DNA of 35,851 nucleotides from Opitutaceae bacterium (GTDB lineage: Bacteria > Verrucomicrobiota > Verrucomicrobiia > Opitutales > Opitutaceae): assembly GCA_018667915.1 (NCBI GenBank), contig JABIRI010000147.1, positions 1 to 35,851 on the forward strand, in the 5' to 3' direction. A program made the translations under genes and the position numbers. Below the pieces are notes generated by a model. The model was given only the letters and a program-made list of their open reading frames with translations. It searched no databases and was not told where the DNA came from. Of the stretch, positions 4,402-29,667 are shown piece by piece (within the stretch, counting starts at the first letter, position 1; each line of letters starts with the position of its first letter).

Positions 4402-5982
4402 CTACCACGCTTGTTCGCGCACGGCCATGAGCTCGGGGTAGCGCTCGTCGGTATCGCCGATTTCGGCTTTGAGTTCTAGGAGCTCGTCTTTGAGCGAGGC
4501 GATGGTTTCAGTGTATTTGGGATCGCGATACAAATCGATCGTTTCATCGGGATCACGGCTCAGATCAAAAAATTGCCACCCGGCTGGTGACTGTTCTGGC
4601 ACGGCGCCCGATGCATCGAGGGGGAGACCGTAGTAGAAGATCAATTTGTGGTCTGTCGTGCGGATGCCGTAGTGCGCGGGCACGTAGTGGTGGGCGAGTT
4701 GCATCCAATACCGGTAGTAGACGGCTTCGCGCCAATCATCCGGGGCATCGCCGCCGTGAATCATGGTCTTGAAGCTGCGACCTTGCATACTGCCGGGGGC
4801 TTCGCCGCCCGCGAGGTCGATCAGGGTGGGAGCGAAGTCGACGTTGGTGATCATGGCGTCGCTGATGAGTCCTGCTTTGATGGCCGGCGGATAACGCACG
4901 ATAAAGGGCATGCGGAGGGACTCTTCATACATCCAACGTTTGTCGTAGTAGTCGTGCTCACCGGTGAGTTGGCCTTGGTCGGAGGTGTAGAGAATGATGG
5001 TATTGTCGAGTTCGCCGGTGGACTCGAGGTAGTCGATGAGGCGACCGATGTTGTCATCCACGCCCCGGACGCAGCGGAGGTATTTTTTCAGGTAACGTTG
5101 GTAGGCGGCGGTTTCGTAGGCTTCCGCCTCCATGTCCTGATCCACCCGCATCTGCATACCGATGTTGCGCTTCAGGTTTCGTTTGCCGATCGAGGAGCCG
5201 AGACCCTCGGTGCTGGGTGAACCGGTCACCGGGCCACCGCGCAGGGTGTGGGGTTCGGGAATGTAGGTGTTTTCGTAGAGGAAGTCGGTGCTCTCGGGAT
5301 TCTCCCAGTTGCCATGCGGTGACTTGAAATGGTGCATGAGAAAGAACGGTTTCGAGGTGTCGCGTTCACTCAACCAATGGAGTGAGAGATCGGTGATGGC
5401 GTCGTCCGCGTGGAGTGCGGCGTCGGCCTTGCCCAAAACTTTGCCGATCATTTGGCGACGGTTGTCCGGCCATTTGCCGGCGTTTTGGTCAAAGAATTCC
5501 GGGTTGAAGTAGGTGCCTTGGCCGGGGAGCACACAGTAGTAGTCAAAGCCGGTGGGTTCGACGTGAAGATGCCATTTCCCAATCATGGCGGTCTGGTAAC
5601 CGAGATCGGACAATACGTGAGGCAGCACGACTTTGTCCGGGGCGATGGCGTCGGTGAGGGTGCGCACGCCATTGACGTGGGAATACTGGCCGGAGAGTAG
5701 GGTGGCGCGACTGGGTGTGCAGATGGAGTTCGAGCAGAAAACGTTGTCGAACCGGACGCCTTCGCGGGCGAGCCGGTCGATGGTGGGCGTGGGATTGAGT
5801 GGCGCGAGACGACCTCCATAGGCGCCGACGGCTTGGCGAGCGTGATCGTCGGACATGATCCAAAGAATATTGGGGCGCTCGGTGGCGGCGAGGGAACTGA
5901 GGATCGAACCGAGCGCGAACGCCACACAAGCGATCATCGACTTCACGGAGCGGGAGTTGAAGGGGCAAACGGAGCGAAGCAT
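4402..5982 (-). CDS. Exported sulfatase (Cys-type, S1 family)
   Basis: This is a periplasmic type I sulfatase of about 526 residues. The chosen start (5982) gives a signal peptide ending near 'SLAATERPN'; a shorter start at 5937 would also leave a good signal peptide. Visible motifs are the metal Asp pair in 'ILWIMSDDHARQ' (about 45-46), the formylglycine motif C-T-P-S-R-A with Cys at about 88, GKWHL, a substrate-side His in 'HHFKSPHGNW', and the distal site 'YTSDQGQLTGEHD' with the following 'KRWMYEESLRMP'. The SDQG...GEH...K.RWMYEES pattern resembles sulfatases acting on amino-sugar or uronic glycans, but the substrate cannot be fixed. It is divergent from the cytoplasmic sulfatase gene and shares its intergenic operator-like sites. 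Confidence 0.92.
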   Translation of the reverse strand: MLRSVCPFNSRSVKSMIACVAFALGSILSSLAATERPNILWIMSDDHARQAVGAYGGRLAPLNPTPTIDRLAREGVRFDNVFCSNSICTPSRATLLSGQYSHVNGVRTLTDAIAPDKVVLPHVLSDLGYQTAMIGKWHLHVEPTGFDYYCVLPGQGTYFNPEFFDQNAGKWPDNRRQMIGKVLGKADAALHADDAITDLSLHWLSERDTSKPFFLMHHFKSPHGNWENPESTDFLYENTYIPEPHTLRGGPVTGSPSTEGLGSSIGKRNLKRNIGMQMRVDQDMEAEAYETAAYQRYLKKYLRCVRGVDDNIGRLIDYLESTGELDNTIILYTSDQGQLTGEHDYYDKRWMYEESLRMPFIVRYPPAIKAGLISDAMITNVDFAPTLIDLAGGEAPGSMQGRSFKTMIHGGDAPDDWREAVYYRYWMQLAHHYVPAHYGIRTTDHKLIFYYGLPLDASGAVPEQSPAGWQFFDLSRDPDETIDLYRDPKYTETIASLKDELLELKAEIGDTDERYPELMAVREQAW

Positions 5983-6026
5983 ACGGGATCGGGGCAAATT
6001 GTCCGGTTCGTTGCAACGCCCCTCGA

Positions 6027-6042
6027 AGTTTAACAGTTTAAC
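6027..6042. repeat. Tandem AGTTTAAC direct repeat in a divergent promoter
   Basis: Two perfect, abutting copies of AGTTTAAC (6027-6034 and 6035-6042) lie 45-60 bases upstream of the 5982 sulfatase start. A related AGTTTAAG occurs at 9319-9326 upstream of the TonB receptor gene. They could be half-sites for a regulator that binds in tandem; this is inference from position and repetition only. Confidence 0.4.
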
Positions 6043-6067
6043 TCGATCCAAAGAATCATCCGAAATG

Positions 6068-6081
6068 GTTAACTGATTTAG
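6068..6081. promoter_or_regulatory. Operator-like motif A, copy 1
   Basis: GTTAACTGATTTAG, followed by CGGC, lies between the divergent sulfatase genes, 73 bases upstream of the ATG at 6155. It matches the site at 19543 at all but two positions through the trailing GCGGC. It is one of three copies of GTTAA[A/C]TGATT[A/T]A in the locus. Confidence 0.45.
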
Positions 6082-6154
6082 CGGCCGGTTCGTTGATTGC
6101 GCCCAGCGCGAGGGCAGCTTTGGCTCCCTTCGCCCAACCCCGGTGAAGTTCCCC

Positions 6155-7537
6155 ATGGATGCCCCTAATTCCCCACGTCGCCCCAATATACTCTTCGTGA
6201 TTACCGATGATCACCAAGCTGATGCGCTGGGTGTGGCGGGTCATTCAATGATCAAAACCCCGGTCCTGGATAGTCTGGCTCGGCGAGGCGTTCGGTTTAG
6301 TCAGACCACCCATGCGGGGAGCATGGTGCCGGCGATCTGTTCTCCGGCCCGGGCGTGTTTGTTGACCGGTCACGATTTTGTCAGGTCCAATCAGAACCCG
6401 GGTCCCGCCAACGAGGGGGAGGCGACCGTGGACATCGCGAGCGATACGGCGACCCTGCCGGAACTATTGGGGCAGGAAGGATACGAGACATTTTTTTGCG
6501 GGAAATGGCACAATGACCGGGCGTCGTTCCTACGTTCGTTCCAACGTGCCCGCCGCATTTTTCATGGTGGGATGTGCGCTCATGAGGCGGTGCCCTTGAT
6601 CGCCGATCGTGAGGCATTTGATCGGGGCGATGAGGCGCAGATCGGCGAGGGTTTTTCTACCGAACTATTCTGTGAATCAATGGCGGACTATTTGCGGGAA
6701 CGCTCACCCGAATCGCCGTTTTTTGCGTGGCTATCGTTGACCTCTCCGCACGATCCCCGCACGCCACCGGAGTCGTATTTGGCGCAGTATGAACCGGATT
6801 CGATTCCGCTGCCGTCCGCGTTTTGCCCTGAGCCGAAATTCGATAACGGAGAACTCGATATCCGGGATGAAAGATTAGCCCCCAAACCTCTGCAGGAAGC
6901 GACGGTGCGGGAGCATCTCGCCGGTTACTACGGCATGATCACGCATCAGGATGAACAGATCGGCCAAGTCTTGCAGGCGCTCGATGAGAGCGGCGAGGCC
7001 GACAACACTATTGTCGTCTATATTGGGGACCACGGCTTGTCGCTGGGAAACCACGGCCTGCTCGGTAAACAGAATCTCTACGAACACAGCACGCGGGTGC
7101 CGTTTATCATGGCGGGACCAGGGGTGCCGGCTGGGCAGTGTCGGGACGGTTTGGTATATTCGCTCGATGTGTTCGCGACGTTACTCGAGTTGGCAGGAAT
7201 CGCCACTCCCTCCGGCTGTGCAAGCCGTAGTCTGGTGCCGGAGTTCACGACTCCGTCGGGCGGACGGGAGGAAGTGGTTTCACTCTACAAAGACAACCAG
7301 CGCATGGTGAAGGAGGCGCGTTGGAAGTTAATCGAATATCACGTGAATGGTGAAAGCCGAATCGAGTTGTTCGATCTTGAAGCCGATCCTCACGAATTGA
7401 CCAACCTTGCGGGAGCAGATGAGTCGACCCAGACTATTGATCGGCTGCGGCGGAAACTCAGCAATTGGCAGACTGAAACCGGTGATCGCTGGATGCCCCT
7501 CGATCTCAATACCCAACCCATTTCCGTCGCCTCATGA
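6155..7537 (+). CDS. Sulfatase without signal peptide, probably cytoplasmic
   Basis: This is a 460-residue type I sulfatase. I use ATG 6155, preceded by GGTGAAG at a six-base spacing, rather than the GTG at 6143. The protein begins 'MDAPNSPRRPNILFVITDDH', so the sulfatase fold starts at once and no signal peptide exists. Motifs: metal DD at about 18-19, C-S-P-A-R-A with Cys at about 62 (Ala in place of the usual Ser before Arg), GKWHND, 'SLTSPHDPR', and 'IGDHGLSLGNHGLLGKQN'. The stop overlaps the start of the SSS symporter gene by four bases (ATGA), so the two are translationally coupled. This suggests that a sulfated mono- or disaccharide is imported by the symporter and desulfated inside the cell. 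It is closely similar in layout to the 19742 sulfatase, which is exported. Confidence 0.92.
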   Translation: MDAPNSPRRPNILFVITDDHQADALGVAGHSMIKTPVLDSLARRGVRFSQTTHAGSMVPAICSPARACLLTGHDFVRSNQNPGPANEGEATVDIASDTATLPELLGQEGYETFFCGKWHNDRASFLRSFQRARRIFHGGMCAHEAVPLIADREAFDRGDEAQIGEGFSTELFCESMADYLRERSPESPFFAWLSLTSPHDPRTPPESYLAQYEPDSIPLPSAFCPEPKFDNGELDIRDERLAPKPLQEATVREHLAGYYGMITHQDEQIGQVLQALDESGEADNTIVVYIGDHGLSLGNHGLLGKQNLYEHSTRVPFIMAGPGVPAGQCRDGLVYSLDVFATLLELAGIATPSGCASRSLVPEFTTPSGGREEVVSLYKDNQRMVKEARWKLIEYHVNGESRIELFDLEADPHELTNLAGADESTQTIDRLRRKLSNWQTETGDRWMPLDLNTQPISVAS

Positions 7538-14534: not shown

Positions 14535-17500
14535 TCAGTTGTTTTCGAGCGGATGCTCTTTCAGTAACTCGGCGGGACTATACAAGCCGGTCTGGTCTTT
14601 TACTTCGGCGCGAACGCGTCGGACCTGGCCGGGGCGGATGGGGCTGGCTTTGTTGCCAAAGGCATTGCGCACGTAGGTGAGCACCGCTGCCATTTCGTCA
14701 TCCTTGAGCAGTCCTTCGAACTGCGTCATGGGCACGACTCCGGGGTAGGCTTTCCCTTTAACCTCGATGGGGCCCATCAGGCCTTTTAGGGTTAGTTTGA
14801 TGAGGCGATCAGGATCGCCCAGTGCCCATTGGGTGTCGGCGAGGGGAGGGAAGCCGACATCGGGTAGACCCTTGCCATCGGGTTGATGGCAGGTAGCGCA
14901 GTGGCCTTCGCGTTCGTAGATCTCAGCGCCTTGAATGAAGCGTTTCGCATCTCCGTCCTCAAGGTGTTTAGGCGCTTGGAGTTCGTCTTCGCGAATTGCC
15001 TTCGGCAGAAAATCACCGGCTAAGGCCGCTTTGGCGTGTTCGAAACTGATAAACATATGATCGTCGATCCCCATGGCCTCGGCAGCTGTGAGAATGGTCT
15101 CACCGGTTTGGCGATCCAGCCGACTTGCAGCCGTAATCGCTTCGAGGCGAACTCGTCCGTGCGGATCGTTGGCCGCTTGCATCAACAATGATTTATGGTC
15201 GGCGAGTTGGTGGTCATTAAAACGCACGGCCCGCACGGCGGCAGAGCGAACGCGGTGGTCGTCGGATTTGAGGAGTTCCTCAAGGAGCTGGCGATCGATC
15301 CGGTCGGCGCCCCACGTCACCCACAGGGCTTCGAGTTTGAAGCGATCGTCCGATTGCTTCGCTGCCCAAGCGGACGCCGCCGCCGTGACTTTGGCGTCGT
15401 CGCGACCGCGCAGTTCGCGTTTGGTGCGGTAACGGGCGCGGTATTCGTGAAGTTTCAGATTCTCGAGCAATTGTTCGATCGAGGCGCCATCAATTTGCGG
15501 CGGCGTCACGAGCGGGCGTGAAGGGTAGGTGATGCGGTAGATGCGACCGTGGGCGTGATCGCGCAGCGGGTCGCGGGCGGAGTGCTGCATGTGCCCGATG
15601 AGGGCGTTGTGCCAGTCGACCACGTAGAGCGAACCATCGGGCGCGAACTCCAGATCGACCGGGCGGAAGTTGAGGTCCTCGGAAACGAACAGGTCTTGGC
15701 GATGTTCGGTGGTAAAGCCCGTGCCGTCTTCGATGACCTGATGCTGTTTGGCGCCGAGGAAACCGATGGCATTGTTGAACAACATATCGCCTTGCACCTC
15801 GTCGGGAAAGTGACGGCTGGAAACGAATTCGAGACCGGACGTAGGCCGCACTTTATTAGACGTAATGAGATCAGGGGCCTCAATATTTACGCCGTAGACG
15901 GGTTGCACCGAACCGGGCATCATCCAGGCTACCTTGGTGCCCGAGGTGAAGAGGAAAAAATCCTGTCCATAATCGTCAAATGCGATGCCCCAAGGATTGG
16001 GGATTTTGAACTGAGCGTAGTTGATCAGTTTTCGGCGTTGTGGCGTATACCGGTAGAACACACCGTTGTTGCCGCGCACGGTGCCGTAGGGCGTTTCGAC
16101 GTTGGTGTGACTGAACAGTCCTTCCGCCATCATGATGGCGCCGGACGGATCGGCACTAAACGCGGAAATGGCGTGGTGGGTATCGTGATCGTCGAACCCG
16201 CTGAGTAATACTTCCTTGGTGTCTGCTTTGTCGTCCCCATCGGTATCGCGCAGCAGGACCAAACTGCCGCTCTGCGAGACGAAGACGCCGTCCGGCGTGA
16301 TCTCGAAACCAATCGGAATGTGAAGATTTTCGGCCCAGGTGATTTGTTTGTCTGCGACGCCATCGTTGTCGGTATCTTCGAAGATCAGCAACTTGTCGTT
16401 GGGGAGCGGATCCCCGATGCGGTAGTGGGGATAACTCGCCATGGTCGAGACCCAGAGGCGGCCCTTGTTATCGAAGGACATTTGAGCGGGATTGGCTAGA
16501 TCAGGGAACCGATGTTCGTCGGCGAAGAGCTCGATCTTATATCCGGGAGCGGTAGTAATTTTAGATTCAACCGCTTTGCCGGGGAGATATTCGGTGGTGC
16601 CGTTTTTAACGCTGGGTTTGTAATTGGTTTCCACCTCGGGCAGCTCTCGGGTTTTGGCATCCTCCGCGGCGAGATCAAAGCGTTCGCCGGCGAGCTTCGC
16701 CCAGATGAGGCGATCTCGGACCGCGGTCATTTCACGGGTCTTTTCCAACTCGAACGGATAATTGTCCGGACCGAACGGATTGTAACGGCGGCCATACGCG
16801 TGCACGCCGTTGGGGATTTTATACAGATTGAGCCACGCCCAGTTTTTTTGCCGAACGGCATCGAGCACGGGTCCACGCTTGCCTTTATGGCGCTCGGTCT
16901 TCGGGAACAGTTGGCTGCTTAAGTAGGGAGCCAACTTGCGATATCCCCGCTCGTTTAAATTTAATCCATCGGTGGTGTATTCCTTGCCATCCTGGAACCA
17001 CTTCTTGGACGGGATGAACACATCGACGAACAGGACACCCTGCTCAGCAGCTACCTCTCGCATCGCCTTTGTATAGATGCGAAGGTTCGCGTTCGCCGTT
17101 TTGCCATCGGGGGTGTGATACTTGGCCGATAGGTCTTCGAATGCGGTGGGAGAAACGAGCGCGAGTTGCGGAATGTTTTCGCCGTTGTATTTCTGGCTGA
17201 GAGTGTGGCGGATGAAGGCAGCAAGCTCCCACTTGTAGCGGTCCAGCCCATCGGGGCCGCCGAAGGAGGAGTTGAGGCCAAAGAAAGCGATGATGGTATC
17301 GGCGCCGAAGCGGGTCAGCCACTGATCAGGCGTTTCGAAATGTCCCTTGGGTCGCGAATCAACCTGATACTTGGCGGGCAGGAGCTCCTTGGCGCCCGGA
17401 AACGCGTATTGTTCCTCCTTGTTACGGGCGGAGTGCGGGCGAAACGCCGGCGTCGTGCCTTCGTCGGCGAAATTGCGGATGGTGAGTTTATGATCGGCGA

Positions 17501-17744
17501 AGCGCAGGAAAATCTCCGTTTCGAAATCCCCGAAATGCACCATGCGCGAGGCGAGCCCGGAGCCGATTAAGGCGATGCGATCTCCCTTTTCGACGGATAG
17601 GCGGTCCGGCGCATCCGTGCGGACATAAGGCACGGACTGAGGATTCAGCGGAGTGATGACACCGGGAGGTAGGTCTGATTCGGTCTCTTGACCAAGGGCA
17701 ACCGCGGCCAAGAGCGCGGATAGGGTGAGCGAAAAGATTTTCAT
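14535..17744 (-). CDS. PVC-type fusion: SGNH domain, propeller, HEAT region and cytochrome c
   Basis: This is a 1069-residue exported protein of the 'PVC-type heme-binding CxxCH' class, with a signal peptide ending at 'AVALGQETES'. In order: an SGNH-hydrolase-like domain (about 50-290; 'IALIGSGLASRMVHFGDFE', 'IIAFFGLNSSFGG', 'TTDGLNLNERGYR'); a beta-propeller dehydrogenase-like domain (about 390-770; 'NKGRLWVSTMASYPHY', 'DTDNDGVADKQ'); a helical HEAT-like region (about 800-920); and a C-terminal cytochrome c with CATCH at about 949-953 and a probable Met ligand at about 1006 in 'VVPMTQF'. Such proteins abound in Planctomycetota and Verrucomicrobiota, where they are presumed to be periplasmic sugar-oxidising enzymes; the true substrate is unknown. 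It is divergent from the broken sulfatase gene and is preceded by promoter module B, shared with the 19742 sulfatase. Confidence 0.9.
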   Translation of the reverse strand: MKIFSLTLSALLAAVALGQETESDLPPGVITPLNPQSVPYVRTDAPDRLSVEKGDRIALIGSGLASRMVHFGDFETEIFLRFADHKLTIRNFADEGTTPAFRPHSARNKEEQYAFPGAKELLPAKYQVDSRPKGHFETPDQWLTRFGADTIIAFFGLNSSFGGPDGLDRYKWELAAFIRHTLSQKYNGENIPQLALVSPTAFEDLSAKYHTPDGKTANANLRIYTKAMREVAAEQGVLFVDVFIPSKKWFQDGKEYTTDGLNLNERGYRKLAPYLSSQLFPKTERHKGKRGPVLDAVRQKNWAWLNLYKIPNGVHAYGRRYNPFGPDNYPFELEKTREMTAVRDRLIWAKLAGERFDLAAEDAKTRELPEVETNYKPSVKNGTTEYLPGKAVESKITTAPGYKIELFADEHRFPDLANPAQMSFDNKGRLWVSTMASYPHYRIGDPLPNDKLLIFEDTDNDGVADKQITWAENLHIPIGFEITPDGVFVSQSGSLVLLRDTDGDDKADTKEVLLSGFDDHDTHHAISAFSADPSGAIMMAEGLFSHTNVETPYGTVRGNNGVFYRYTPQRRKLINYAQFKIPNPWGIAFDDYGQDFFLFTSGTKVAWMMPGSVQPVYGVNIEAPDLITSNKVRPTSGLEFVSSRHFPDEVQGDMLFNNAIGFLGAKQHQVIEDGTGFTTEHRQDLFVSEDLNFRPVDLEFAPDGSLYVVDWHNALIGHMQHSARDPLRDHAHGRIYRITYPSRPLVTPPQIDGASIEQLLENLKLHEYRARYRTKRELRGRDDAKVTAAASAWAAKQSDDRFKLEALWVTWGADRIDRQLLEELLKSDDHRVRSAAVRAVRFNDHQLADHKSLLMQAANDPHGRVRLEAITAASRLDRQTGETILTAAEAMGIDDHMFISFEHAKAALAGDFLPKAIREDELQAPKHLEDGDAKRFIQGAEIYEREGHCATCHQPDGKGLPDVGFPPLADTQWALGDPDRLIKLTLKGLMGPIEVKGKAYPGVVPMTQFEGLLKDDEMAAVLTYVRNAFGNKASPIRPGQVRRVRAEVKDQTGLYSPAELLKEHPLENN

Positions 17745-17920: not shown

Positions 17921-19516
17921 ATGTTTCGTTCCTGCATCGCTTTCTTCAGATCCGGATTACTCTGTGTAGGGTTGGCTACCTCACTGGTCGCGGATAATCG
18001 ACCGAATATCATTCTGATTGTCGCCGATGACATGGGCTACTCCGACATCGGCAGCTTTGGTGGAGAAATTGCCACGCCTAGTCTCGACCAACTCGCTCGC
18101 GAAGGTTTGCGCTTCACCCAGTTCTACAATTGCGGGGTATGTGTGACCACCCGGTCGGGGATGTATACGGGATTGTATCCCCGATTTCCCGGCCAGGCGT
18201 CTGCCGCCAATTCTTCGCTGCGTCCCGAGATGACCACATTGGGGAATGTGCTCAAGGCGGCGGGATATCAAACCGCCATGACCGGCAAATGGCATCTGGG
18301 ACAGGAAGCGCCCCTTCGACCTATCGATCGGGGTTTTGACGAGTTCTATGGTCTGCTCGATGGGTGCTGTAACTTCTTCAATCCGGCCCAGCCCGATCCG
18401 GATTTTTACAACGGCGGGCTCGTGCGGCACTTCGCCCACAATGAGGAAACGGTGACGTCCTTTCCGGAGAACTATTACTCGACCGATGCGTTTACCGACC
18501 ATGCGATTGCCACTCTTGAGCGATATGCTGGCTCGGGAAAACCGTTCTTCATCAACCTCAACTACACCGCGCCCCATTTCCCGTTACATGCCTTGCCGGA
18601 GGATATCGCGCGCTACCGCGGAAAATACCATATGGGCTACGAGCGGATGCGACGAGATCGTTATGCCCGCCAGATCGAATCGGGTCTCTTTGATCCGAAC
18701 GCGGTATGGCTCTCGGCGGCTGACACCAAGGAATCCGATTTTCGTTACGACAATGAGATCGTGCCGTGGGAGGAGTTAGACGATGAAACCCGTCGTCGGG
18801 AAGAGGCGCGCATGGAGGTCTATGCCGCGATGGTCGACCGGATGGATCAAGGTATTGGAAGGCTGATGCTCGCACTCGAGCAGAGTGGGGAGGCCGATAA
18901 TACGATTGTGATCTTTTTCTCCGACAATGGCGGTTGCGCGAGTTGGCCGACCGGGGATGTGGAGCCGGATTTCGTGGACCACAACGAAGGGATTCCGGTG
19001 GGCGACGGCCGCGGCTACGAGTTTGTCGGTAAGGCCTAGGGCTGGGCCCAGAACGCGCCGTTTCGCCGCCATAAGGTTTGGACCTACGAAGGCGGAATCG
19101 CCACACCGATGATCGTGCGGTGGCCAGCTAACGTTGCTGCCGGCACGCTCACGCGACAACCGGGGCACGTGGTTGACCTTATGCCTACATTTCTGGAGTT
19201 GGCGAAGGGGAATTACCCTGAAACTCGGGAAGGGCATGACGTTCCGCCCATGGAAGGGCATAGTTTGATCCCGATTCTCGAAGGTGGGCGCCGCGAGGCA
19301 CCCGCTATGGGGTGGGCGTTGTTTCACAACTACGCGTGGCGGGAAGGGGACCGTAAAATCGTGTTCAACCGTAGTCGTCAGGAGTGGGAACTCTACGATC
19401 TCAGCGGCGACCGGGCGGAAACACGAAATTTGGCGCCGCAAAATCCGACCGAGGTCAAACGGTTGGTTACCGCGTGGTGGGAGTGGGCGGAGCGGTGCGG
19501 CATCACCAAGATGTAG
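17921..19516 (+). pseudogene. Exported sulfatase interrupted by an in-frame TAG
   Basis: This is a type I sulfatase gene broken by one amber codon at 19037-19039 (codon 373 of 532). The first part encodes a signal peptide (to about 'SLVADNRPN'), the metal Asp pair 'VADDMGYSDIG', the Cys motif C-V-T-T-R (Cys at about 74; Thr replaces the usual Pro or Ala), GKWHLG, 'YTAPHFPLH' and 'FFSDNGG'. Directly after the TAG the same frame continues 'GWAQNAPFRRHKVWTYEGGI', the normal sulfatase sequence containing the active-site Lys, and runs 158 more codons to a proper stop at 19516. No frameshift is present. A protein ending at the TAG would lack the distal Lys and the C-terminal subdomain. It is either a very recent nonsense mutation, a sequence error, or a readthrough site. 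It is divergent from the PVC-cytochrome gene. Confidence 0.88.
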
Positions 19517-19741: not shown

Positions 19742-21211
19742 ATGTCTTGTTACCCTTCTCTGAATCCTGGCCGCTGGGCCAACTTGCTGCTGATTGCCAC
19801 CCTAGCGGGCAGCTCACTCTCGGCCGATCATCATGCGCCCGCTGCCGGCTCGAAGCCGAATGTGCTGTTTCTCTTCGCTGACGACCAAACTTACGCCGCG
19901 GTGCGGGAATACGGTCTCACCGATATCGACACGCCGAATCTGGATCGATTGGTCAAACGCGGCACGACCTTTACGCACGCTTACAACATGGGCTCATGGA
20001 GTGGAGCGGTTTGTGTGGCGAGTCGGACCATGTTGATGACGGGTCGCAGTCTCTACGATGCGGGTGCGCACGATAAAAAACTCGCCGCCGAAATCGAGCG
20101 GGGCGTCATGTGGCCGCAGTTGATGAAAGAGGCCGGTTATCGCACTTACTTCACCGGTAAATGGCACGTGAAAGCGGACACCGAAAAAATCTTCGACGAA
20201 GTGCGGCATCAGCGACCCGGTATGCCTCGCACCAATGTGAACGATCACAACCGGCCTCATATCGGCCAGCCCGATACCTGGAATGCCGCCGACGAATCTC
20301 TCGCCGGATTCTGGGAAGGCGGGAGGCACTGGAGTGCAATCGTCGCTGACGATGCCATCGAATATTTGGACCAAGCGAAAAGCCATTCCGAACCGTTCTT
20401 CATGTATGCGGCGTTCAATGCGCCCCATGATCCACGGCAGGCTCCGCAGGAGTATTTGGATCTTTATCCGCTTGATCGCATCGAGGTCCCCGCGACGTAT
20501 TTGCCTTACTACCCTTACAAGGAAGAGATGGCCGCCGGAGAAAAATTACGTGATGAGAGTCTGGCACCGTTTCCGCGCACGGAATACGCGGTCCAGGTCC
20601 ACCGCCGCGAATACTACGCGCTGGTAACTCATCTGGATGCGCAAATCGGCCGCGTGCTCGACGCCCTCGAGGAATCGGGCCAAGCCGACAATACGTGGGT
20701 ATTTTTCTCCGCCGATCATGGCCTGTCGGTCGGCCAGCATGGCCTGCTCGGTAAACAAAACATGTATGAGCACAGCCTGCGCGTTCCGTTCATGGTCGTG
20801 GGCCCGGGCGTTCCGGCCAACCACCGTATGGCGGCCCCGATTTATTTGCAGGATGTGATGCCGACCGCGCTCGCATTGGCCGGAGCCCATACGCCTGACC
20901 ACGTGTTTTATAACAGCCTCTTGCCGCAGATCACTGGCCACGATGGCGAAACCAACTACCCGGCGGTGTTAGGCTCATACCTCGACAAACAACGCGCGGT
21001 GATTCGAGATGGTTGGAAACTCATTCTCTATCCCGAGGCCCAAGCGGTGCGTCTCTACAACGTCGCGCTCGACGAGCTCGAGGAGCACGACCATGCCGGT
21101 TACCCCGGCTCCCTCGATCGTCAACGCGCGCTTTTTGCCGACCTTTTGGAACTGCAATCTGAACTCGGCGACGCCTTGGATCTGCGCGAGGTCTATCCGC
21201 ATCTGCGTTAA
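19742..21211 (+). CDS. Exported sulfatase (Cys-type, S1 family)
   Basis: This is a 489-residue periplasmic sulfatase. The signal peptide covers residues 1 to about 28 ('LAGSSLSADHH'). Motifs: 'VLFLFADDQTYAAVREYG' with the metal Asp pair at about 47-48, C-V-A-S-R-T with Cys at about 91, 'YFTGKWHVKA', 'AAFNAPHDPRQAP', and 'FSADHGLSVGQHGLLGKQN' then 'YEHSLRVPF'. The distal region and overall architecture are very like those of the cytoplasmic sulfatase at 6155, so the two are probably paralogues acting on related sulfate esters in different compartments. It heads an operon with the 21236 sulfatase (24 bases downstream) and probably the 22724 and 23218 genes. Transcription is likely from module B, with motif A further upstream. 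Confidence 0.94.
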   Translation: MSCYPSLNPGRWANLLLIATLAGSSLSADHHAPAAGSKPNVLFLFADDQTYAAVREYGLTDIDTPNLDRLVKRGTTFTHAYNMGSWSGAVCVASRTMLMTGRSLYDAGAHDKKLAAEIERGVMWPQLMKEAGYRTYFTGKWHVKADTEKIFDEVRHQRPGMPRTNVNDHNRPHIGQPDTWNAADESLAGFWEGGRHWSAIVADDAIEYLDQAKSHSEPFFMYAAFNAPHDPRQAPQEYLDLYPLDRIEVPATYLPYYPYKEEMAAGEKLRDESLAPFPRTEYAVQVHRREYYALVTHLDAQIGRVLDALEESGQADNTWVFFSADHGLSVGQHGLLGKQNMYEHSLRVPFMVVGPGVPANHRMAAPIYLQDVMPTALALAGAHTPDHVFYNSLLPQITGHDGETNYPAVLGSYLDKQRAVIRDGWKLILYPEAQAVRLYNVALDELEEHDHAGYPGSLDRQRALFADLLELQSELGDALDLREVYPHLR

Positions 21212-21235: not shown

Positions 21236-22672
21236 ATGCAAAATCTCACCCGATTCCTTCTGACCGCTGCGGTTGTCGCATGCACCAGTCTTTCCGTTGC
21301 GGCCAAGCGCACCGACGATCGCCCCAATATTCTGTTCATTTTGCTCGATGATCTCGGCAAGGAATGGGTGAGCTCTTACGGTGCGACAGATATTGAAACG
21401 CCGGTGGTCGATTCCCTCGCGGCGGGCGGTATCAAGTTTAACAACTTCTACGTCATGCCCCAGTGCACACCCACCCGGCTCACGCTCATGACCGGCCAAA
21501 AGCCCTTCCGTCATGGTTGGGTAAATCACTGGGATGTGCCGCGTTGGGGCGGAAGAGCGCACTATGATTATATCCTGAACCCCTCGATGGTCCGCGGTAT
21601 CAACGAAGCCGGATACGCTACTGCGGTCGCTGGCAAGTGGCAGGTCAACGACTTCCGCGTGCAACCCGAAGCCATGGTCGAGATGGGCTTCGATGACTAC
21701 TGCATGTGGACCGGCTGGGAGGCGGACAACAAACCCAGCGCCGAACGTTATTGGGACCCTTATATCCACACCAAGGAAGGCAGCCGCACCTACCAGGGTG
21801 CGTTTGGCGACAAGGTTTTTACGGATTTCCTGATCGACTTCATGGGCAAGCATAAGGACGAACCGATGCTGATGTATTTCGCCATGTGTCTGCCGCACGG
21901 CCCGTTAGTTTCGACGCCGTCCGAACCCGACGTCACCGACAAGATGGACAAACACAAGGCGATGGTCCGCTACGCCGATGAATTGACGGGGCAACTCGTG
22001 CAGGCGCTGGATGATCTCGGGATTCGCGATGACACCATCATCATTTGGACGACCGACAACGGCACCGCCGGCAGCATCACGGGCACCCGAAACGGACGCC
22101 GCGTGCCAGGCGGTAAAGCCAAGACCCTCGAAACTGGCGTCAACAGTCCCTTCATCGTCAACGCTCCCGGTCGCACGCCCGTGGGAATCGAAAGCAACGC
22201 ACTCTTCACCATCGCCGATATGATGCCCACATTCGCCGAACTCGCCGGCGCCAAATTGCCTGAACAGTTCGTGCTCGATGGCGTATCCGTGGCCGATGCG
22301 TTGCTCGGTAAATCCGAACGCTCACCCCACGACTGGATCATGGCGATGGGTGGCCGCAACGAAGCTAAACTCACCGATGCCGGAGTGGAAAATGCCTACG
22401 TTTACCGTGACCGCGTGCTGCGTAACGAACGCTTCAAACTCTACGTCGATACGAACCGCACACCGGAGAAACTCTTCGATCTGGAGAATGACCCTTGGGA
22501 AGAGCACAACATCATCGGCAGCACTGACCCCGATGCGGCCGCCGCTCAAGCATTCCTGACCCTCCAACTTTCCCGTTATCCGGGACGCGACAGTGATCCG
22601 ATCTACAATCCGCTTCCCGCTCGTCCTTGGGACGTGCCCGTGACGGCTCAATCAGAAGTCTGGAAAAAGTAG
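21236..22672 (+). CDS. Exported sulfatase with GKWQ in place of GKWH
   Basis: This is a 478-residue periplasmic sulfatase with signal peptide to about 'LSVAAKRTDD'. It has 'ILFILLDDLGKEWVSSYG' (metal Asp pair about 38-39), C-T-P-T-R-L with the modifiable Cys at about 77, 'MCLPHGPLV', 'WTTDNGTAGS' and the distal Lys in 'VPGGKAKTLETGVNSPF'. At about 134-136 the usual GKWH reads GKWQ: the Lys is kept, but the His that normally contacts the sulfate is Gln. All other catalytic positions are intact, so it may be active with altered specificity or pH behaviour. It lies 24 bases after the previous sulfatase gene, so both are in one operon. The substrate is not predictable from sequence alone. Confidence 0.92.
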   Translation: MQNLTRFLLTAAVVACTSLSVAAKRTDDRPNILFILLDDLGKEWVSSYGATDIETPVVDSLAAGGIKFNNFYVMPQCTPTRLTLMTGQKPFRHGWVNHWDVPRWGGRAHYDYILNPSMVRGINEAGYATAVAGKWQVNDFRVQPEAMVEMGFDDYCMWTGWEADNKPSAERYWDPYIHTKEGSRTYQGAFGDKVFTDFLIDFMGKHKDEPMLMYFAMCLPHGPLVSTPSEPDVTDKMDKHKAMVRYADELTGQLVQALDDLGIRDDTIIIWTTDNGTAGSITGTRNGRRVPGGKAKTLETGVNSPFIVNAPGRTPVGIESNALFTIADMMPTFAELAGAKLPEQFVLDGVSVADALLGKSERSPHDWIMAMGGRNEAKLTDAGVENAYVYRDRVLRNERFKLYVDTNRTPEKLFDLENDPWEEHNIIGSTDPDAAAAQAFLTLQLSRYPGRDSDPIYNPLPARPWDVPVTAQSEVWKK

Positions 22673-25150: not shown

Positions 25151-25861
25151 TCAGAGCTCCTTGATGCGCAGGTCACGGAACCACACGCGGTGGCCGTGAT
25201 CTTGCAGGCCGATGTGGCCTTTATCCAAGGTCGCGAAGTCTGCCCATTTGGCGAACTTCGCGTTGGCGATCTGCTCTTTCCATTTCTCGCTGTGCATCTC
25301 GTAGGTCGCGGTCATCGCGCCGTTGATCCAGTATTCGACGTGGTTGCCGCGAACGACGATTCGACCTTCATTCCATTCCCCAACCGGGTTGGTTTCGTTG
25401 CTGAGTGGAGGTTCGATCGCGTAGTGCGATCCAGAGTATTCGGAGGGTCCGACGGGGAGTCCTTTGCCGGAGCGGAACCCCTCGTTATCGAGCACCTGAT
25501 ATTCGGGGCCGGTGAGGTAGGGCTGTTTCGGGCCTTCGCCGATGTTGAACATGACGCCGGAGTTGGTGCCAGCTTCAACCTTCCAGCCGAAACGCAGGTC
25601 GAAGTCGTCGTAAACCGCTTCGGTGATGATGTTCGCATGCGGGCTGCCTTTGGGCTGGGCGGTCAAGTGCAGGGTGCCGTTTTCGGCCACCCAGACGCCG
25701 TCCATGGGACCGCCGTTGTAGCCGCGCCAGCCGGTGAGATCCTCGCCATTAAACAAGGAAACGAAATCTGCCTCGGCAGCGACTTCGGTGGTTTCGGTTT
25801 TGGCGCATCCGCCCAAGAGAGCGGCGGTGGCGAGAAGAAGGGGAAGGGAGGATCGAAGCAT
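25151..25861 (-). CDS. DUF1080 (3-keto-glycoside hydrolase family) lipoprotein
   Basis: This is a 236-residue lipoprotein. I chose ATG 25861, which gives a lipoprotein signal with lipobox LLGGC (Cys at about 19) followed by 'AKTETTEVA'; an upstream extension to 26035 would overlap the PQQ gene and is unlikely. The mature part is one DUF1080 (PF06439) domain: 'FVSLFNGEDLTGWRGYNGG', 'FDLRFGWKVEAGTNSGVMF', 'GPEYQVLDNEGF', 'HYAIEPP', 'GHIGLQDHGHRVWFRDLRI'. The family is named 3-keto-disaccharide hydrolase and has a concanavalin-like fold. It lies 47 bases downstream of the PQQ dehydrogenase gene on the same strand, and that protein carries its own DUF1080 domain, so the two probably act on the same oxidised glycosides at the cell surface or in the periplasm. 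Confidence 0.9.
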   Translation of the reverse strand: MLRSSLPLLLATAALLGGCAKTETTEVAAEADFVSLFNGEDLTGWRGYNGGPMDGVWVAENGTLHLTAQPKGSPHANIITEAVYDDFDLRFGWKVEAGTNSGVMFNIGEGPKQPYLTGPEYQVLDNEGFRSGKGLPVGPSEYSGSHYAIEPPLSNETNPVGEWNEGRIVVRGNHVEYWINGAMTATYEMHSEKWKEQIANAKFAKWADFATLDKGHIGLQDHGHRVWFRDLRIKEL

Positions 25862-25908
25862 GGGAATTATTGAGTGAGGGATGAAACACAGCGTTACGCC
25901 AGTTTTCG

Positions 25909-28900
25909 TTAAAGTTTTACCAATCGAAGATCGTCGAACAGCACACCGCCGCCGACGGTGTAGGCGGTGGAGAACATTTCGAGTCGGAGTCGGCCGTCGG
26001 CAGGAATGGTAACCTCGCACGAAGCGGATTCCCACATAGGTACTTTCTGCGATTGGTCTCGAGCCAAGCGCATCGCGAGAGCTCCATTGAGATACACTTC
26101 AGCGGTGAGTGGATCTTCCTGATCCCACCAGGTGTGGCGGGCATACTTTAGGGAGAGGCGGTAACGCGCCCCAGGTTCGAGGTCGGTGATGATCTGGCCG
26201 ATGCCTCCTGCACCGTGTCCACCCAGATCAACGACGGCTTTACCCTCGGGTGCGCCGAAGCGTTCGTAGCTGATCACATCGATGTTTTCGCGCAGCACGA
26301 GCCAGCCGGGAAGCTGATGACCACAAAGGTGTGGGTTGGCTCCAAAGTGTTCGGCGATCGGTGCCTCAAAACCAGCGTTCGCAATGGCGGGGCTTTCCGG
26401 GAGCGACGGCAAACCGCCGGGCACGAGGCGGAGGTTGTCGATGACCATGCCGTGAGCGCCGGGTAGGGTGGAACGGAGTTCGAGAGTGATCTCGCCCTTC
26501 GCACTCGATCGCAGCGGCACGCCAATCCCGTCCATGTAGTCGGGTGCATTGGAGGTATTGCGCAGGGTCGTGATGCGTTCGCCGTTGGACCAAACTTCGG
26601 TGGTGACGATGACGGGATTATTGCCCCGTTGTTTTTGATCCGCGTAGGCGATTCTCAGGGTGTAAGGATGATCGGGCTTGAGGTCGCCGACGGTTTGGCG
26701 AATCGCGCCGGGTTGGTCGCCGTTGAGGTCCAAAGCGTAGTTTCCGTTGGCGGCTTCGAACTCGGAACTCGCAACGAGTTCCACATTGCCACGAGTGACT
26801 TCCCAACCCGTGAGGGTGGAGAGCACGGTGCGATCGGCCGTGGGCGCGTCGGCCTCGAAGGAGGCGTTCGCAAAGACGTCGCTGCCTGGTGACTCCAGCG
26901 GACGGATCCGGATATTGCGCCAACCCATCTTAAATGATCGCGCATCTTTGATCCCGTGAACCTGCAGGCCGATGAAACCACTGGGGTGGCTGGCGTGGAG
27001 GGCATGGTCGACTAGGTCCTCCACTAGGTTTCCGTTTACCCATGTTTGAATGCGGGGGCCCTGAGCGACGATGCGCAGCTTGTTCCATCCGGTGGGATCC
27101 GAGTAGTCGTGGCCGCGCTCGATGGTTTCCTTCGAGCTCATCCAGCCGGAGCCTACGGCCTCGGCGTAGAGCACGCCGGTGGTGGGGGAATTGGGTCCGA
27201 GATTGCGCCGAATCTCGGCTTGAGGTCCCCAAACGCGACCCGCCCATTGCGTGTTGCGAGGGCCGATGGTCTCGGGGCGCACGCCAGAGCGGATTTGGAT
27301 GCCCGAGTTGGTGACGTCATCAATCCATACCTCTACTTCGAGCTCGAAGTCGGCGAATTCTTGGGTCGTGCAGAGAAACGAATTGGGGCTGCCCTCGACG
27401 GTGCGCCCGATGATGGCTCCGTCTTCGACCGTGTAGGTATGCTCGCCGTTGAGGCGGGCCCAACCGTCGAGCGTTTCTCCGTCGAAAAGTTCGATCCATT
27501 CGCCGTCTGGTTCGACCACGCGGGATTTCTCCGGTAAGGCGAATGCCATGATGGTATCTCCCGATGGGGTGCCGATCTTACCACCACCGCCGCAGGCGAT
27601 GGCTACGAATTGGCGTCCCTCGACCGCGTAGACGCTTGGGGTGGCGTAACCGCCGGTGGGAAGTTGGACTTCCCAAAGCAGACGTCCGCCGTTCTTCTCG
27701 AAGGCGTGCATTTTCTCATCGGCGGTAGCAGCGATGAAGATCACGCCGCCCGCCGTCGCTACGGCTCCGCCAAAGTTCATCGAACCGGTATTGCGGATAC
27801 CTTGTTTGACGAGGTGCGGGTATTCGCCGAGCGGGACTTCCCAGCGGATTTTGCCGGATCCCAGATCGATGGCGCTCAGTTTGCCCCATGGCGGTTTGAT
27901 CCGGGGAGCGCCCAGCTCATCCGTGAATTTGCGATAGCCCGCCATAACGTAGCGTTCGGGGAGACCAGTTGGTGAGGCGTCCTCGACGGAAGGTTCGGAT
28001 CGCAAATGGGTGATCAGGGCGCTGAGTTCGTCGGTCGAAAATTGGGTGAAGGCCGGCATGAGGCCTTGGCCGGTTTGGAGCAGAACTTCGATTTCGGCAT
28101 CGGTTTTCTGACTCGCCATCAACGAGGGGAATACTGGCGGCACGCCTTCGCGCTGCAGGCCGTGACACGATGCGCAGTTTTGCACGTAGAGGCGTCGACC
28201 GATCTCGGCGGGGGTGGCATCATCGGGCAAGGGATCTCCCTCCGGCACGAGCTGCATGAGGGACGGCGAGTCGTGGGAGTTGACGTAGAGGATGTTGCTA
28301 TTCGCGTCGTAGGAAGCGCCGTGCCATTCGATGCCGCCCAAGGTGCCCGGAATCATAATGCTCTCGGTCAGGGAAGGCGGCGCATACATCGGCACGTTGC
28401 GGAGTTTCGCGAAGGCCTCCAGCGCGGCGGCGGCGCGTTCGGGCGACGTGTTGTCGAGATCTTCGACGGTCATACTGGTGCGATTGACCGAGACCGGAAG
28501 ACGCGGAATGGGTTGAGTCGGCCAGGCTTCTTCGCCGGGAATCGTGGACGGCGGCACCGGAACTTCGTCGACGGGAAAGATCGGTTCACCCGTATCGCGA
28601 TCGAGCACGAAAATCAGTCCCATTTTGGTCATCTGCACGACAGCGTCCTGTTTGCCGTTTTCACCGTTAATGGTGACGAGGACCGGCGCCGAGGGGTTGT
28701 CCATGTCCCAGAGATCGTGGTGCACGGTTTGGTAGTGCCAGATGCGTTCGCCGGTGCGGGCATCAAGCGCGAGCACGCAATTTCCGAAAAGGTTCATGCC
28801 TTTGCGGTTGGCTCCGTAGAAGTCGAAGCTCGGCGATCCGGTGGCGGCGAAGACCCAGCCGCGTTCGGCATCGAGGGTGAAGCCGCCCCACGCGTTGGCT

Positions 28901-29667
28901 CCGCCGTAATTTTGACCCTCCCGCCACTCCCACGTATCGTGGCCAAATTCTCCGGGTTGCGGAATGGTGTGAAAGATCCAGCGGAACTCGCCGGTGGTCG
29001 CATCGAAAGCGCGAATGTGTCCGGGCGTGGAACGATAGCCTTCCGGCACGCGCGACGCGATGATCAGGTTGTTCTCAAAAATGATGCCGGGAGTCGTGAC
29101 CTCCACGGATGCCGTGGTCGGATCGACATCGAGGTTTTCGCGTAGATCGAGCCAGCCGTCGGAGCCGAATTTTACAACCGGTTTCCCGGTGCGGGCATCG
29201 AGCGCATAGACACGACCTTTGACGAAGTGGAAGATGCGTTGATCCTCGCCATCGTCGCTTTGCCAATAAGTCACGCCGCGGTTACGACCGGCTCCGGTCT
29301 TGGGTGCGCCCGGGAAGGTTGCGGGATCAAATACCCAAAGTTCCTCGCCAGTCGCGGCGTCCAACGCGATGGCCTTGAGACCCGGTGAGGTGAAGAACAT
29401 ACGACCTGCGATGATGATCGGGTTGCTGTAGATCGTGGTGCCCTTTTTGGCATCACCGGTTTGGTAGGTCCAGACCGGCTCAAGGTCGGCGACGTTGGCC
29501 GCGTGAATTTGGCTGAGGTCGGAGTATTGCTCTCCTTTGCTGTCGCCTTTGTAGATTCCCCAATCGACGAGGTTGTCGAGAGAAGCCTCGGCGTAAGCGG
29601 CCGATCCGAGAGTCGTAATAATCGCGGCATACCGGATAGCACGTGAGAAAGGGGTAAGTTTCATCAT
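25909..29667 (-). CDS. PQQ dehydrogenase-cytochrome c-DUF1080-carbohydrate-binding fusion
   Basis: This is a 1252-residue exported protein; the signal peptide ends near 'SAAYAEASL'. Residues about 30-710 form a PQQ-type eight-bladed propeller of the glucose/quinate-dehydrogenase kind ('LKAIALDAATGEELWVFDP', 'GGIEWHGASYDANSNILY', 'GKIGTPSGDTIMAFALP'). A cytochrome c domain is inserted in it, with CASCH at about 498-502 and a Met ligand candidate in 'GLMPAFTQF'. A DUF1080 domain follows at about 715-925 ('WIELFDGETLDGWARLNGE', 'NSGIQIRSGV', 'SGFIGLQVHG'). Two jelly-roll carbohydrate-binding-like (DUF642/CBM-like) domains are at about 930-1090 and 1092-1252. The fusion suggests sugar oxidation and keto-glycoside cleavage in one protein, with electrons passed to the inserted heme. 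It is the first gene of a two-gene operon. The start could be either of two adjacent Met codons. Confidence 0.9.
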   Translation of the reverse strand: MMKLTPFSRAIRYAAIITTLGSAAYAEASLDNLVDWGIYKGDSKGEQYSDLSQIHAANVADLEPVWTYQTGDAKKGTTIYSNPIIIAGRMFFTSPGLKAIALDAATGEELWVFDPATFPGAPKTGAGRNRGVTYWQSDDGEDQRIFHFVKGRVYALDARTGKPVVKFGSDGWLDLRENLDVDPTTASVEVTTPGIIFENNLIIASRVPEGYRSTPGHIRAFDATTGEFRWIFHTIPQPGEFGHDTWEWREGQNYGGANAWGGFTLDAERGWVFAATGSPSFDFYGANRKGMNLFGNCVLALDARTGERIWHYQTVHHDLWDMDNPSAPVLVTINGENGKQDAVVQMTKMGLIFVLDRDTGEPIFPVDEVPVPPSTIPGEEAWPTQPIPRLPVSVNRTSMTVEDLDNTSPERAAAALEAFAKLRNVPMYAPPSLTESIMIPGTLGGIEWHGASYDANSNILYVNSHDSPSLMQLVPEGDPLPDDATPAEIGRRLYVQNCASCHGLQREGVPPVFPSLMASQKTDAEIEVLLQTGQGLMPAFTQFSTDELSALITHLRSEPSVEDASPTGLPERYVMAGYRKFTDELGAPRIKPPWGKLSAIDLGSGKIRWEVPLGEYPHLVKQGIRNTGSMNFGGAVATAGGVIFIAATADEKMHAFEKNGGRLLWEVQLPTGGYATPSVYAVEGRQFVAIACGGGGKIGTPSGDTIMAFALPEKSRVVEPDGEWIELFDGETLDGWARLNGEHTYTVEDGAIIGRTVEGSPNSFLCTTQEFADFELEVEVWIDDVTNSGIQIRSGVRPETIGPRNTQWAGRVWGPQAEIRRNLGPNSPTTGVLYAEAVGSGWMSSKETIERGHDYSDPTGWNKLRIVAQGPRIQTWVNGNLVEDLVDHALHASHPSGFIGLQVHGIKDARSFKMGWRNIRIRPLESPGSDVFANASFEADAPTADRTVLSTLTGWEVTRGNVELVASSEFEAANGNYALDLNGDQPGAIRQTVGDLKPDHPYTLRIAYADQKQRGNNPVIVTTEVWSNGERITTLRNTSNAPDYMDGIGVPLRSSAKGEITLELRSTLPGAHGMVIDNLRLVPGGLPSLPESPAIANAGFEAPIAEHFGANPHLCGHQLPGWLVLRENIDVISYERFGAPEGKAVVDLGGHGAGGIGQIITDLEPGARYRLSLKYARHTWWDQEDPLTAEVYLNGALAMRLARDQSQKVPMWESASCEVTIPADGRLRLEMFSTAYTVGGGVLFDDLRLVKL

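Follow-up and report, generated by a model that had tools for sequence, protein, structure and literature searches.

Among the closest described systems to the locus reported here is one that pairs a dehydrogenase with a protein of the DUF1080 family (PF06439), the family of BT2157-type 3-keto-disaccharide hydrolases and keto-glycoside lyases. The oxidising partners of BT2157-type hydrolases are nicotinamide adenine dinucleotide (NAD)-type oxidoreductases, and LacABC of Caulobacter is not NAD-based but a flavin-type dehydrogenase. Here, we analyse a 35,851-nucleotide stretch of DNA (the window) from an Opitutaceae bacterium of the order Opitutales (Verrucomicrobiota; contig JABIRI010000147.1), in which a single gene joins a pyrroloquinoline quinone (PQQ) dehydrogenase propeller, a c-type cytochrome and a DUF1080 domain in one exported protein, beside a gene for a separate DUF1080 lipoprotein.

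In Caulobacter, fitness data tie a DUF1080 protein (CCNA_01705) and LacABC to lactose use, and a periplasmic route has been proposed in which LacABC oxidises the glycoside before the DUF1080 protein acts; hydrolysis of 3'-ketolactose itself is not demonstrated there, and BT2157, a 3-ketotrehalose hydrolase, is a second precedent (PMC9007349). Elimination of keto-glycosides, an alternative to hydrolysis, has been described for unrelated enzymes (PMC10628242), and a DUF1080 protein of Thermogutta has been reported as an endo-glucanase (xanthanase/lichenase) (PMC10881899). A secreted protein of the fungus Coprinopsis resembles the window protein in carrying a PQQ sugar dehydrogenase, a haem-containing cytochrome and a binding domain, for cellulose adsorption, in one chain, but it is eukaryotic, and its abstract describes low similarity to known PQQ enzymes and does not name DUF1080 (PMC4133262). 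Our literature search, whose scope left out most subscription journals, returned no paper naming DUF1080 and PQQ together. The window protein shares with the LacABC system the proposed sequence of extracytoplasmic oxidation followed by DUF1080, but there the genes are separate and the dehydrogenase is unrelated. The original prediction had set this route apart from NAD-dependent keto-sugar pathways; the general idea was already proposed for LacABC, and what is new here is its quinoprotein, one-chain version.

The two genes and the parts of the fusion protein are as follows.

25909 to 29667, minus strand: fusion gene, 1252 amino acids, with signal peptide, PQQ propeller with inserted cytochrome c, DUF1080 and two C-terminal beta-rich modules (open reading frame (ORF), Pfam, AlphaFold)
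29590 to 29667, minus strand: Sec-type signal peptide, residues 1–26, cleavage after AYA (judged by eye from the sequence)
28234 to 29562, minus strand: first part of the PQQ propeller, residues 36–478, with R130, E209, W260, S280, D321, K348 and N463 at active-site columns of the membrane glucose dehydrogenase (mGDH) (Pfam, alignment, fold match)
28705 to 28707, minus strand: D321, at the Asp466 column of Escherichia coli mGDH (alignment)
28003 to 28209, minus strand: c-type cytochrome between propeller blades, residues 487–555, with CASCH at 498–502 and distal Met537 (Pfam, alignment)
27523 to 27957, minus strand: closing blades of the PQQ propeller, about residues 571–715 (Pfam, AlphaFold)
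26902 to 27501, minus strand: DUF1080 (PF06439) domain of N-type, residues 723–922 (Pfam, alignment)
25912 to 26880, minus strand: two C-terminal beta-rich modules, residues 930–1252, weakly CBM_4_9-, HpiC1- and choice-of-anchor C-like (profile matches)
25151 to 25861, minus strand: separate DUF1080 lipoprotein of C-type, 236 amino acids, ATG at 25861, lipobox LGGC by eye (PF06439)

The fusion ORF runs without interruption from a Sec-type N-terminus, as judged by eye. Pfam places PF01011 at residues 36–478 (624.9 bits, cut-off 26.7), cytochrome c PF13442 at 487–555 (44.7 bits), the best PQQ_2 stretch at 595–680 and PF06439 at 723–922 (140.4 bits, cut-off 26.8); the lipoprotein, whose gene begins 47 bp past the fusion stop on the downstream side, scores 174.1 bits against the same DUF1080 cut-off of 26.8, and a longer version of its ORF reaching 26035 exists but is not required. 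The ORFs and Pfam thus confirm the predicted combination of PQQ, cytochrome c and DUF1080 in one exported protein beside a DUF1080 lipoprotein. The cytochrome is not, however, appended to the propeller but sits inside it, between the PF01011 and PQQ_2 stretches. An AlphaFold model of residues 27–935, built with 37 sequences, is of good quality (mean predicted local distance difference test score (pLDDT) 85.9, predicted template modelling score (pTM) 0.88), and its propeller, of the eight-bladed kind by family model and fold, matches PQQ alcohol dehydrogenases (Foldseek and VIA; best Z 36.3 over 494 residues).

The PQQ site was compared in an alignment of 33 proteins: the window protein, 7 other fusions, 21 other relatives and 4 proteobacterial mGDHs. 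The active-site columns follow the residue numbers of E. coli mGDH; in the Citrobacter mGDH of the alignment, the expected residues are shifted from these numbers by 3 or 4 positions. Window residues R130, W260, D321, D323, K348 and N463 occupy the columns of mGDH R266, W404, D466, D468, K493 and N607, while E209 stands at the D354 column, S280 at T424 and A126 at H262. The six shared residues and the Glu at the Asp354 column are identical in all eight fusion rows compared, and E209 pairs with a Glu of the quinohaemoprotein alcohol dehydrogenase 1kb0. The Glu of 1kb0 is a metal ligand and Asp466 of E. coli mGDH the catalytic base; D321, E209, K348, W260, N463 and R130 would provide the catalytic Asp, the metal carboxylate and the PQQ contacts. 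Because the column residues are kept across the fusions and E209 matches the 1kb0 Glu, the site resembles a quinoprotein dehydrogenase site that has a metal carboxylate of the alcohol dehydrogenase kind and lacks the mGDH His. The metal and Asp ligands, whose loss had been named beforehand as refuting, are therefore present. The haem predicted to take up the electrons also has its residues intact: the CxxCH motif lies at C498–H502, and Met537 is present in all 26 aligned rows with a cytochrome insert, the only row without the insert being the fusion of genome G007 (G and L numbers are our labels for genomes and loci).

The fusion falls closest to the NCBI subfamily TIGR03074 (glucose/quinate/shikimate membrane dehydrogenases), with which it shares the active-site Asp, Lys, Trp and Asn, but it scores 457.9 against a cut-off of 832.65, matches only from profile position 150, lacks the N-terminal membrane domain and differs further in its inserted cytochrome and the absence of His262. 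Type II quinohaemoprotein alcohol dehydrogenases (1kb0, 1kv9, 1yiq; Z about 36) likewise hold a PQQ propeller and a c-type haem in one chain; their cytochrome, in contrast, is C-terminal rather than nested in the propeller, and they have no DUF1080.

In the DUF1080 part, N787, Q816, E818, Y834, E836, N862, N878, Q902 and H904 are invariant in all 25 N-type sequences; 13 C-type domains keep N787, N862, N878, Q902 and H904 in 92–100% of cases and have Glu and Gln swapped at 816/818. The fused domain retains the polar residues conserved in its subfamily, conservation by itself being no proof of catalysis. It shares its family with the BT2157-type enzymes and differs from them as a divergent N-type member. 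Its best solved match is the N-terminal domain of the tandem DUF1080 protein BT3469 (PDB 4jqt; 36% identity by Foldseek), and that of the lipoprotein is the C-terminal domain of the same protein, which has no dehydrogenase part and whose entry title gives no function. The same pair of types occurs as an N-type plus C-type tandem near the PQQ gene in L197 and L222. With an N-type domain joined to the oxidiser and a C-type lipoprotein beside it, the window carries both halves of such a tandem.

A search for the same domain order elsewhere, as the original prediction had suggested, found the PQQ-DUF1080 core in 10 genomes including that of the window: 8 of the 253 genomes of the order, one more Verrucomicrobiota metagenome-assembled genome (MAG) and one Gemmatimonadetes MAG. 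Our surveys covered Verrucomicrobiota, Gemmatimonadetes and Bacteroidota genomes. With the fused DUF1080 domain as the query, 15 genomes of the order had matches at E ≤ 1e-55, namely the 8 fusions, all below 1e-78, and 7 stand-alone proteins; the G089 fusion is split over two contigs, with the junction visible on one. The additional Verrucomicrobiota fusion lies in a named uncultured Opitutaceae MAG (L178, OX638348.1). That of the Gemmatimonadetes MAG (L179, genome of JAHWJV010000059.1) was the sole match at E ≤ 1e-45 in 150 genomes of its phylum, and it is no obvious stray of the same source as the Verrucomicrobiota fusions, since its contig piece has a guanine-cytosine content of 69%, whereas the window and the fusion regions of Verrucomicrobiota range from 47 to 57%. 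When the full-length fusion was searched against 387 genomes of the phylum, the window genome and G236 alone yielded it; this query scored two candidates per genome, and fusions may therefore be undercounted there. The cytochrome is present in 8 of the 10 fusions. Of 296 Bacteroidota genomes searched with the fusion query, again with two candidates scored per genome, 39 contain close PQQ-cytochrome relatives; they gave 50 matches at E ≤ 1e-130, none of which reaches into the DUF1080 domain.

Occurrence in 10 genomes and a good AlphaFold model place the join of PQQ and DUF1080 parts beyond chance. A chance ORF or an assembly chimera (the window genome has 4.28 Mb in 361 contigs) is ruled out by the core order in these genomes and by the fused DUF1080 domains, which form a single clade with support of 100/99 in a tree of 70 rows. 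In the same tree, the lipoprotein stands nearest to DUF1080 genes of the L198–L211 lineage that lie one or two ORFs away from a PQQ gene, with at most 43% identity; support is 96/38 at the lipoprotein's own fork and 98/82 at the wider fork. We also considered the lipoprotein and the fusion as a conserved pair and rejected this, as the regions fetched for the other fusions, some of them short, show no such gene next to the fusion.

In Bacteroidota, where the two parts are separate, their genes are neighbours more often than expected. The 39 Bacteroidota genomes hold 462 PF06439 matches, of which the best 150 were used in an adjacency test whose rows are not independent; as a control, we took the best 150 of 690 sulfatase matches in the same genomes. 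Among these matches, DUF1080 lies within 1.5 kb at 8 of 50 PQQ loci (0.24 expected) and within 10 kb at 10 of 50 (0.97 expected), and the sulfatase control gave 0/150 and 10/150, respectively. Regions were fetched for 41 of these 50 loci; the nine omitted were those ranked lowest or not listed. DUF1080 occurs in 13 of these 41 regions versus 1 of 20 arbitrarily placed 20-kb control regions (Fisher P = 0.017; 0/14 Bacteroidota and 1/6 Verrucomicrobiota controls), and in 1 of 23 non-fused Verrucomicrobiota PQQ regions, in one of which no PQQ ORF was called.

In a PQQ tree of 83 rows made with a quick method, nine fusions group with the Bacteroidota PQQ proteins L190 and L197, whose DUF1080 gene is either adjacent or separated by two ORFs at most, in a single clade with a Shimodaira–Hasegawa-like approximate likelihood ratio test (SH-aLRT) support of 99. 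By our reading, PQQ genes with a DUF1080 neighbour turn up again in about five other parts of the tree: L209 with L218, L245, L208, L222 and the seven-row L198–L211 clade. The PQQ tree nests the two Bacteroidota split proteins within the fusions (95), whereas in the DUF1080 tree the fused domains are monophyletic and those two lie outside. Five fusion rows of the PQQ tree kept some DUF1080 residues, which the filter, set to columns occupied in at least 30% of the rows, should remove. The linkage of PQQ and DUF1080 genes is recurrent across phyla, and the observation is therefore better founded than could be known from the window alone.

Several related arrangements were seen alongside. In Bacteroidota, the PQQ-DUF1080 pair has DUF6807 (PF14100) as a third partner (L190 5279–9098, L197 8308–10594), either fused to DUF1080 or lying between the genes. 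Two other quinoprotein-DUF1080 fusions exist. One is a cytochrome c-GSDH-DUF1080-ankyrin protein of G007 (L116 15318–17969), a genome that also holds the window-type fusion without cytochrome, and it has a close relative in G089 (L187 6006–7682); in both genomes, a GSDH-DUF1080 gene lies about 5 kb from the fusion. The other is a DUF1080-ThuA-GSDH-PKD protein of 1166 amino acids (L198 11761–15261), whose gene is five ORFs from a PQQ-cytochrome gene that adjoins another DUF1080 gene.

The C-terminal modules differ from the rest of the protein. Against a cut-off of 25.9, the CBM_4_9 match from residue 930 scores 21.4 bits when the full-length protein is searched and 26.1 when the region is taken alone; the HpiC1-like match gives 34.1 bits for the region alone (cut-off 27) and the choice-of-anchor C match 72.2 bits, below its cut-off of 120. 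The structure of this part is predicted poorly (mean pLDDT 56.4). Among the 10 fusions, only the window protein has these modules, and the other nine end with DUF1080, on which ground we rejected them as part of the core. Of the 222 other genomes searched in the order, one has a relative with 44% identity, an unfused ORF open at its contig end. The two modules of the original prediction therefore exist, but their likeness to carbohydrate-binding domains is weak, and the modules supposed to hold a polymer are absent from the other fusions.

The genes around the fusion include five sulfatases and several further functions.

4402 to 6186, minus strand: sulfatase
6143 to 7537, plus strand: sulfatase
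17921 to 19516, plus strand: sulfatase, interrupted
19742 to 21211, plus strand: sulfatase
21236 to 22672, plus strand: sulfatase
within 4402 to 25119: SSF transporter, TonB receptor, alpha-L-fucosidase, GDSL esterase, BNR-LamG protein and GDSL-DUF7133-HEAT-cytochrome c protein

The interrupted sulfatase has an in-frame TAG at 19037–19039, with 372 amino acids before it and the frame open after it to 19516; this is either a real nonsense change or a sequencing error. The last protein of the list (14535–17744, 1069 amino acids) joins a GDSL esterase, DUF7133, HEAT repeats and a cytochrome c, and a protein of L183 (949–4281) resembles it but ends in a cupredoxin domain. A BLAST search with one window sulfatase found sulfatases near the fusions in L112, L115, L116 and L178 and none near those in L111, L113, L114 and L179, some of these regions being short. 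A plastocyanin/azurin-family gene adjoins the fusion in L111 (4399–4860), and genes in L112 (6550–6999) and L114 (1528–1977) are look-alikes of it by their N-termini.

On this basis, our leading reading, to which we give about an even chance, is that the window gene encodes an exported quinohaemoprotein that would oxidise a glycoside outside the cytoplasm and then cleave it, following in quinoprotein form the logic proposed for LacABC and DUF1080. The PQQ- and metal-loaded propeller would oxidise a ring hydroxyl of a sugar residue, C3 being the position used by the known partners of DUF1080. The inserted haem would take up the electrons and hand them to a cytochrome or cupredoxin, as the haem ligands and the azurin-family gene beside one fusion, with look-alikes beside two, suggest. 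DUF1080 would then cut the activated glycosidic bond by elimination or hydrolysis, and the C-type lipoprotein may act on the same or a related product. The substrates are likely to be oligosaccharides of a sulfated, fucose-containing glycan, because sulfatases and a fucosidase neighbour the fusion. The chemistry of oxidation followed by cleavage is plausible, and unproven. The intact PQQ, metal and haem residues, the conserved fusion, the adjacency in another phylum and the conserved polar residues of DUF1080 support the original prediction in part, while its polymer-holding modules are weak and its self-contained character is put too strongly.

A number of observations weigh against this reading. 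His262 of mGDH is not kept, so the substrate cannot be read from mGDH, and the products of mGDH-family enzymes can be lactones. Two of the 10 fusions have no cytochrome: that of G007 and, judging by its split contigs, that of G089. Among the matches used, the contrast between PQQ and sulfatase loci is weaker at 10 kb (10/50 versus 10/150), and five of the eight close adjacencies belong to one lineage. The fetched regions of the closest stand-alone relatives of the fused domain (7 genomes, six of one genus) contain no PQQ-mGDH match, which speaks against a pre-fusion operon of a simple kind. Near these relatives lie a ThuA gene (by Pfam in L181; similar by eye in L182, L183 and L185) and sulfatases (L180, L181, L182, L184 and L185). 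Deletion of BT2157 caused no growth defect on raffinose-family sugars (PMC11501099). Finally, pqqC (TIGR02111), the only pqq gene searched for, was not found in any of the eight fusion genomes searched (G603 and G605 were left out) and is present in both positive-control genomes; PQQ would therefore have to be scavenged, or the site would be empty, and to call the machine self-contained is too strong.

Some facts of this kind also favour another account of DUF1080. The window genome has 25 PF06439 matches, 22 of them over the cut-off, and in four other of its proteins DUF1080 follows sulfatase, PhoD phosphatase, GDSL esterase (L133, L135 and L147) and DUF7133 domains in an accessory-like manner. 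Because of these attachments, which are its strongest evidence, a binding role is a serious rival, although we regard it as less likely than our leading reading: DUF1080 would be a non-catalytic, laminin-G-like sugar-binding or targeting module, and the PQQ-cytochrome part an ordinary aldose or glycoside dehydrogenase acting on sugars freed by the sulfatases and fucosidase and feeding respiration. PQQ-cytochrome relatives without DUF1080 nearby, found in 28 of the 41 Bacteroidota and 22 of the 23 non-fused Verrucomicrobiota regions, fit this account and count against ours. Against it stand the nine polar residues invariant in the N-type sequences and the closeness of DUF1080, among the matches listed, to PQQ genes and not to sulfatases; the members with a reported function, moreover, cleave keto-glycosides or glucans (PMC9007349, PMC10881899).

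The order of events could also be reversed: DUF1080, as a true hydrolase, would cut the polymer first, and the PQQ-cytochrome part would then act on the reducing end thus formed, oxidising it to a lactone or aldonate in the manner of the auxiliary oxidoreductases of biomass breakdown. The enzymes of the mGDH family commonly oxidise C1, which suits this order. The endo-glucanase activity of the Thermogutta protein (PMC10881899) and the domain combination of the fungal PQQ sugar dehydrogenase (PMC4133262) point the same way, but cleavage of glucans by DUF1080 is reported for that one enzyme (PMC10881899). C1 oxidation alone, moreover, needs no DUF1080 in cis, and we consider the reversed order quite improbable. 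A propeller that carries no PQQ in vivo, in a protein serving as a scaffold or in another redox role, would agree with the missing pqqC but not with the kept PQQ and metal residues, and since E. coli, without PQQ synthesis, still uses an mGDH, we hold this to be very improbable.

Taken together, oxidation followed by DUF1080 cleavage leads us to propose, tentatively, a quinoprotein class of oxidative glycan cleavage in Verrucomicrobiota, Bacteroidota and one Gemmatimonadetes MAG, in which PQQ-cytochrome dehydrogenases would make keto-glycosides and pass them, within one chain or from a neighbouring gene, to extracytoplasmic DUF1080 lyases or hydrolases, coupling cleavage to respiration as a third electron-acceptor version beside the NAD and LacABC types. 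The fusion places the question of oxidation and cleavage within reach of one expressed protein. If the proposal is true, some bacteria would break down glycans outside the cytoplasm by respiration-driven oxidation rather than with glycoside hydrolases of the classical kind, and their dehydrogenase may depend on scavenged PQQ; a set of uncharacterised PQQ-cytochrome genes would gain a suggested function, and the multiplication of DUF1080 in these bacteria one possible cause.

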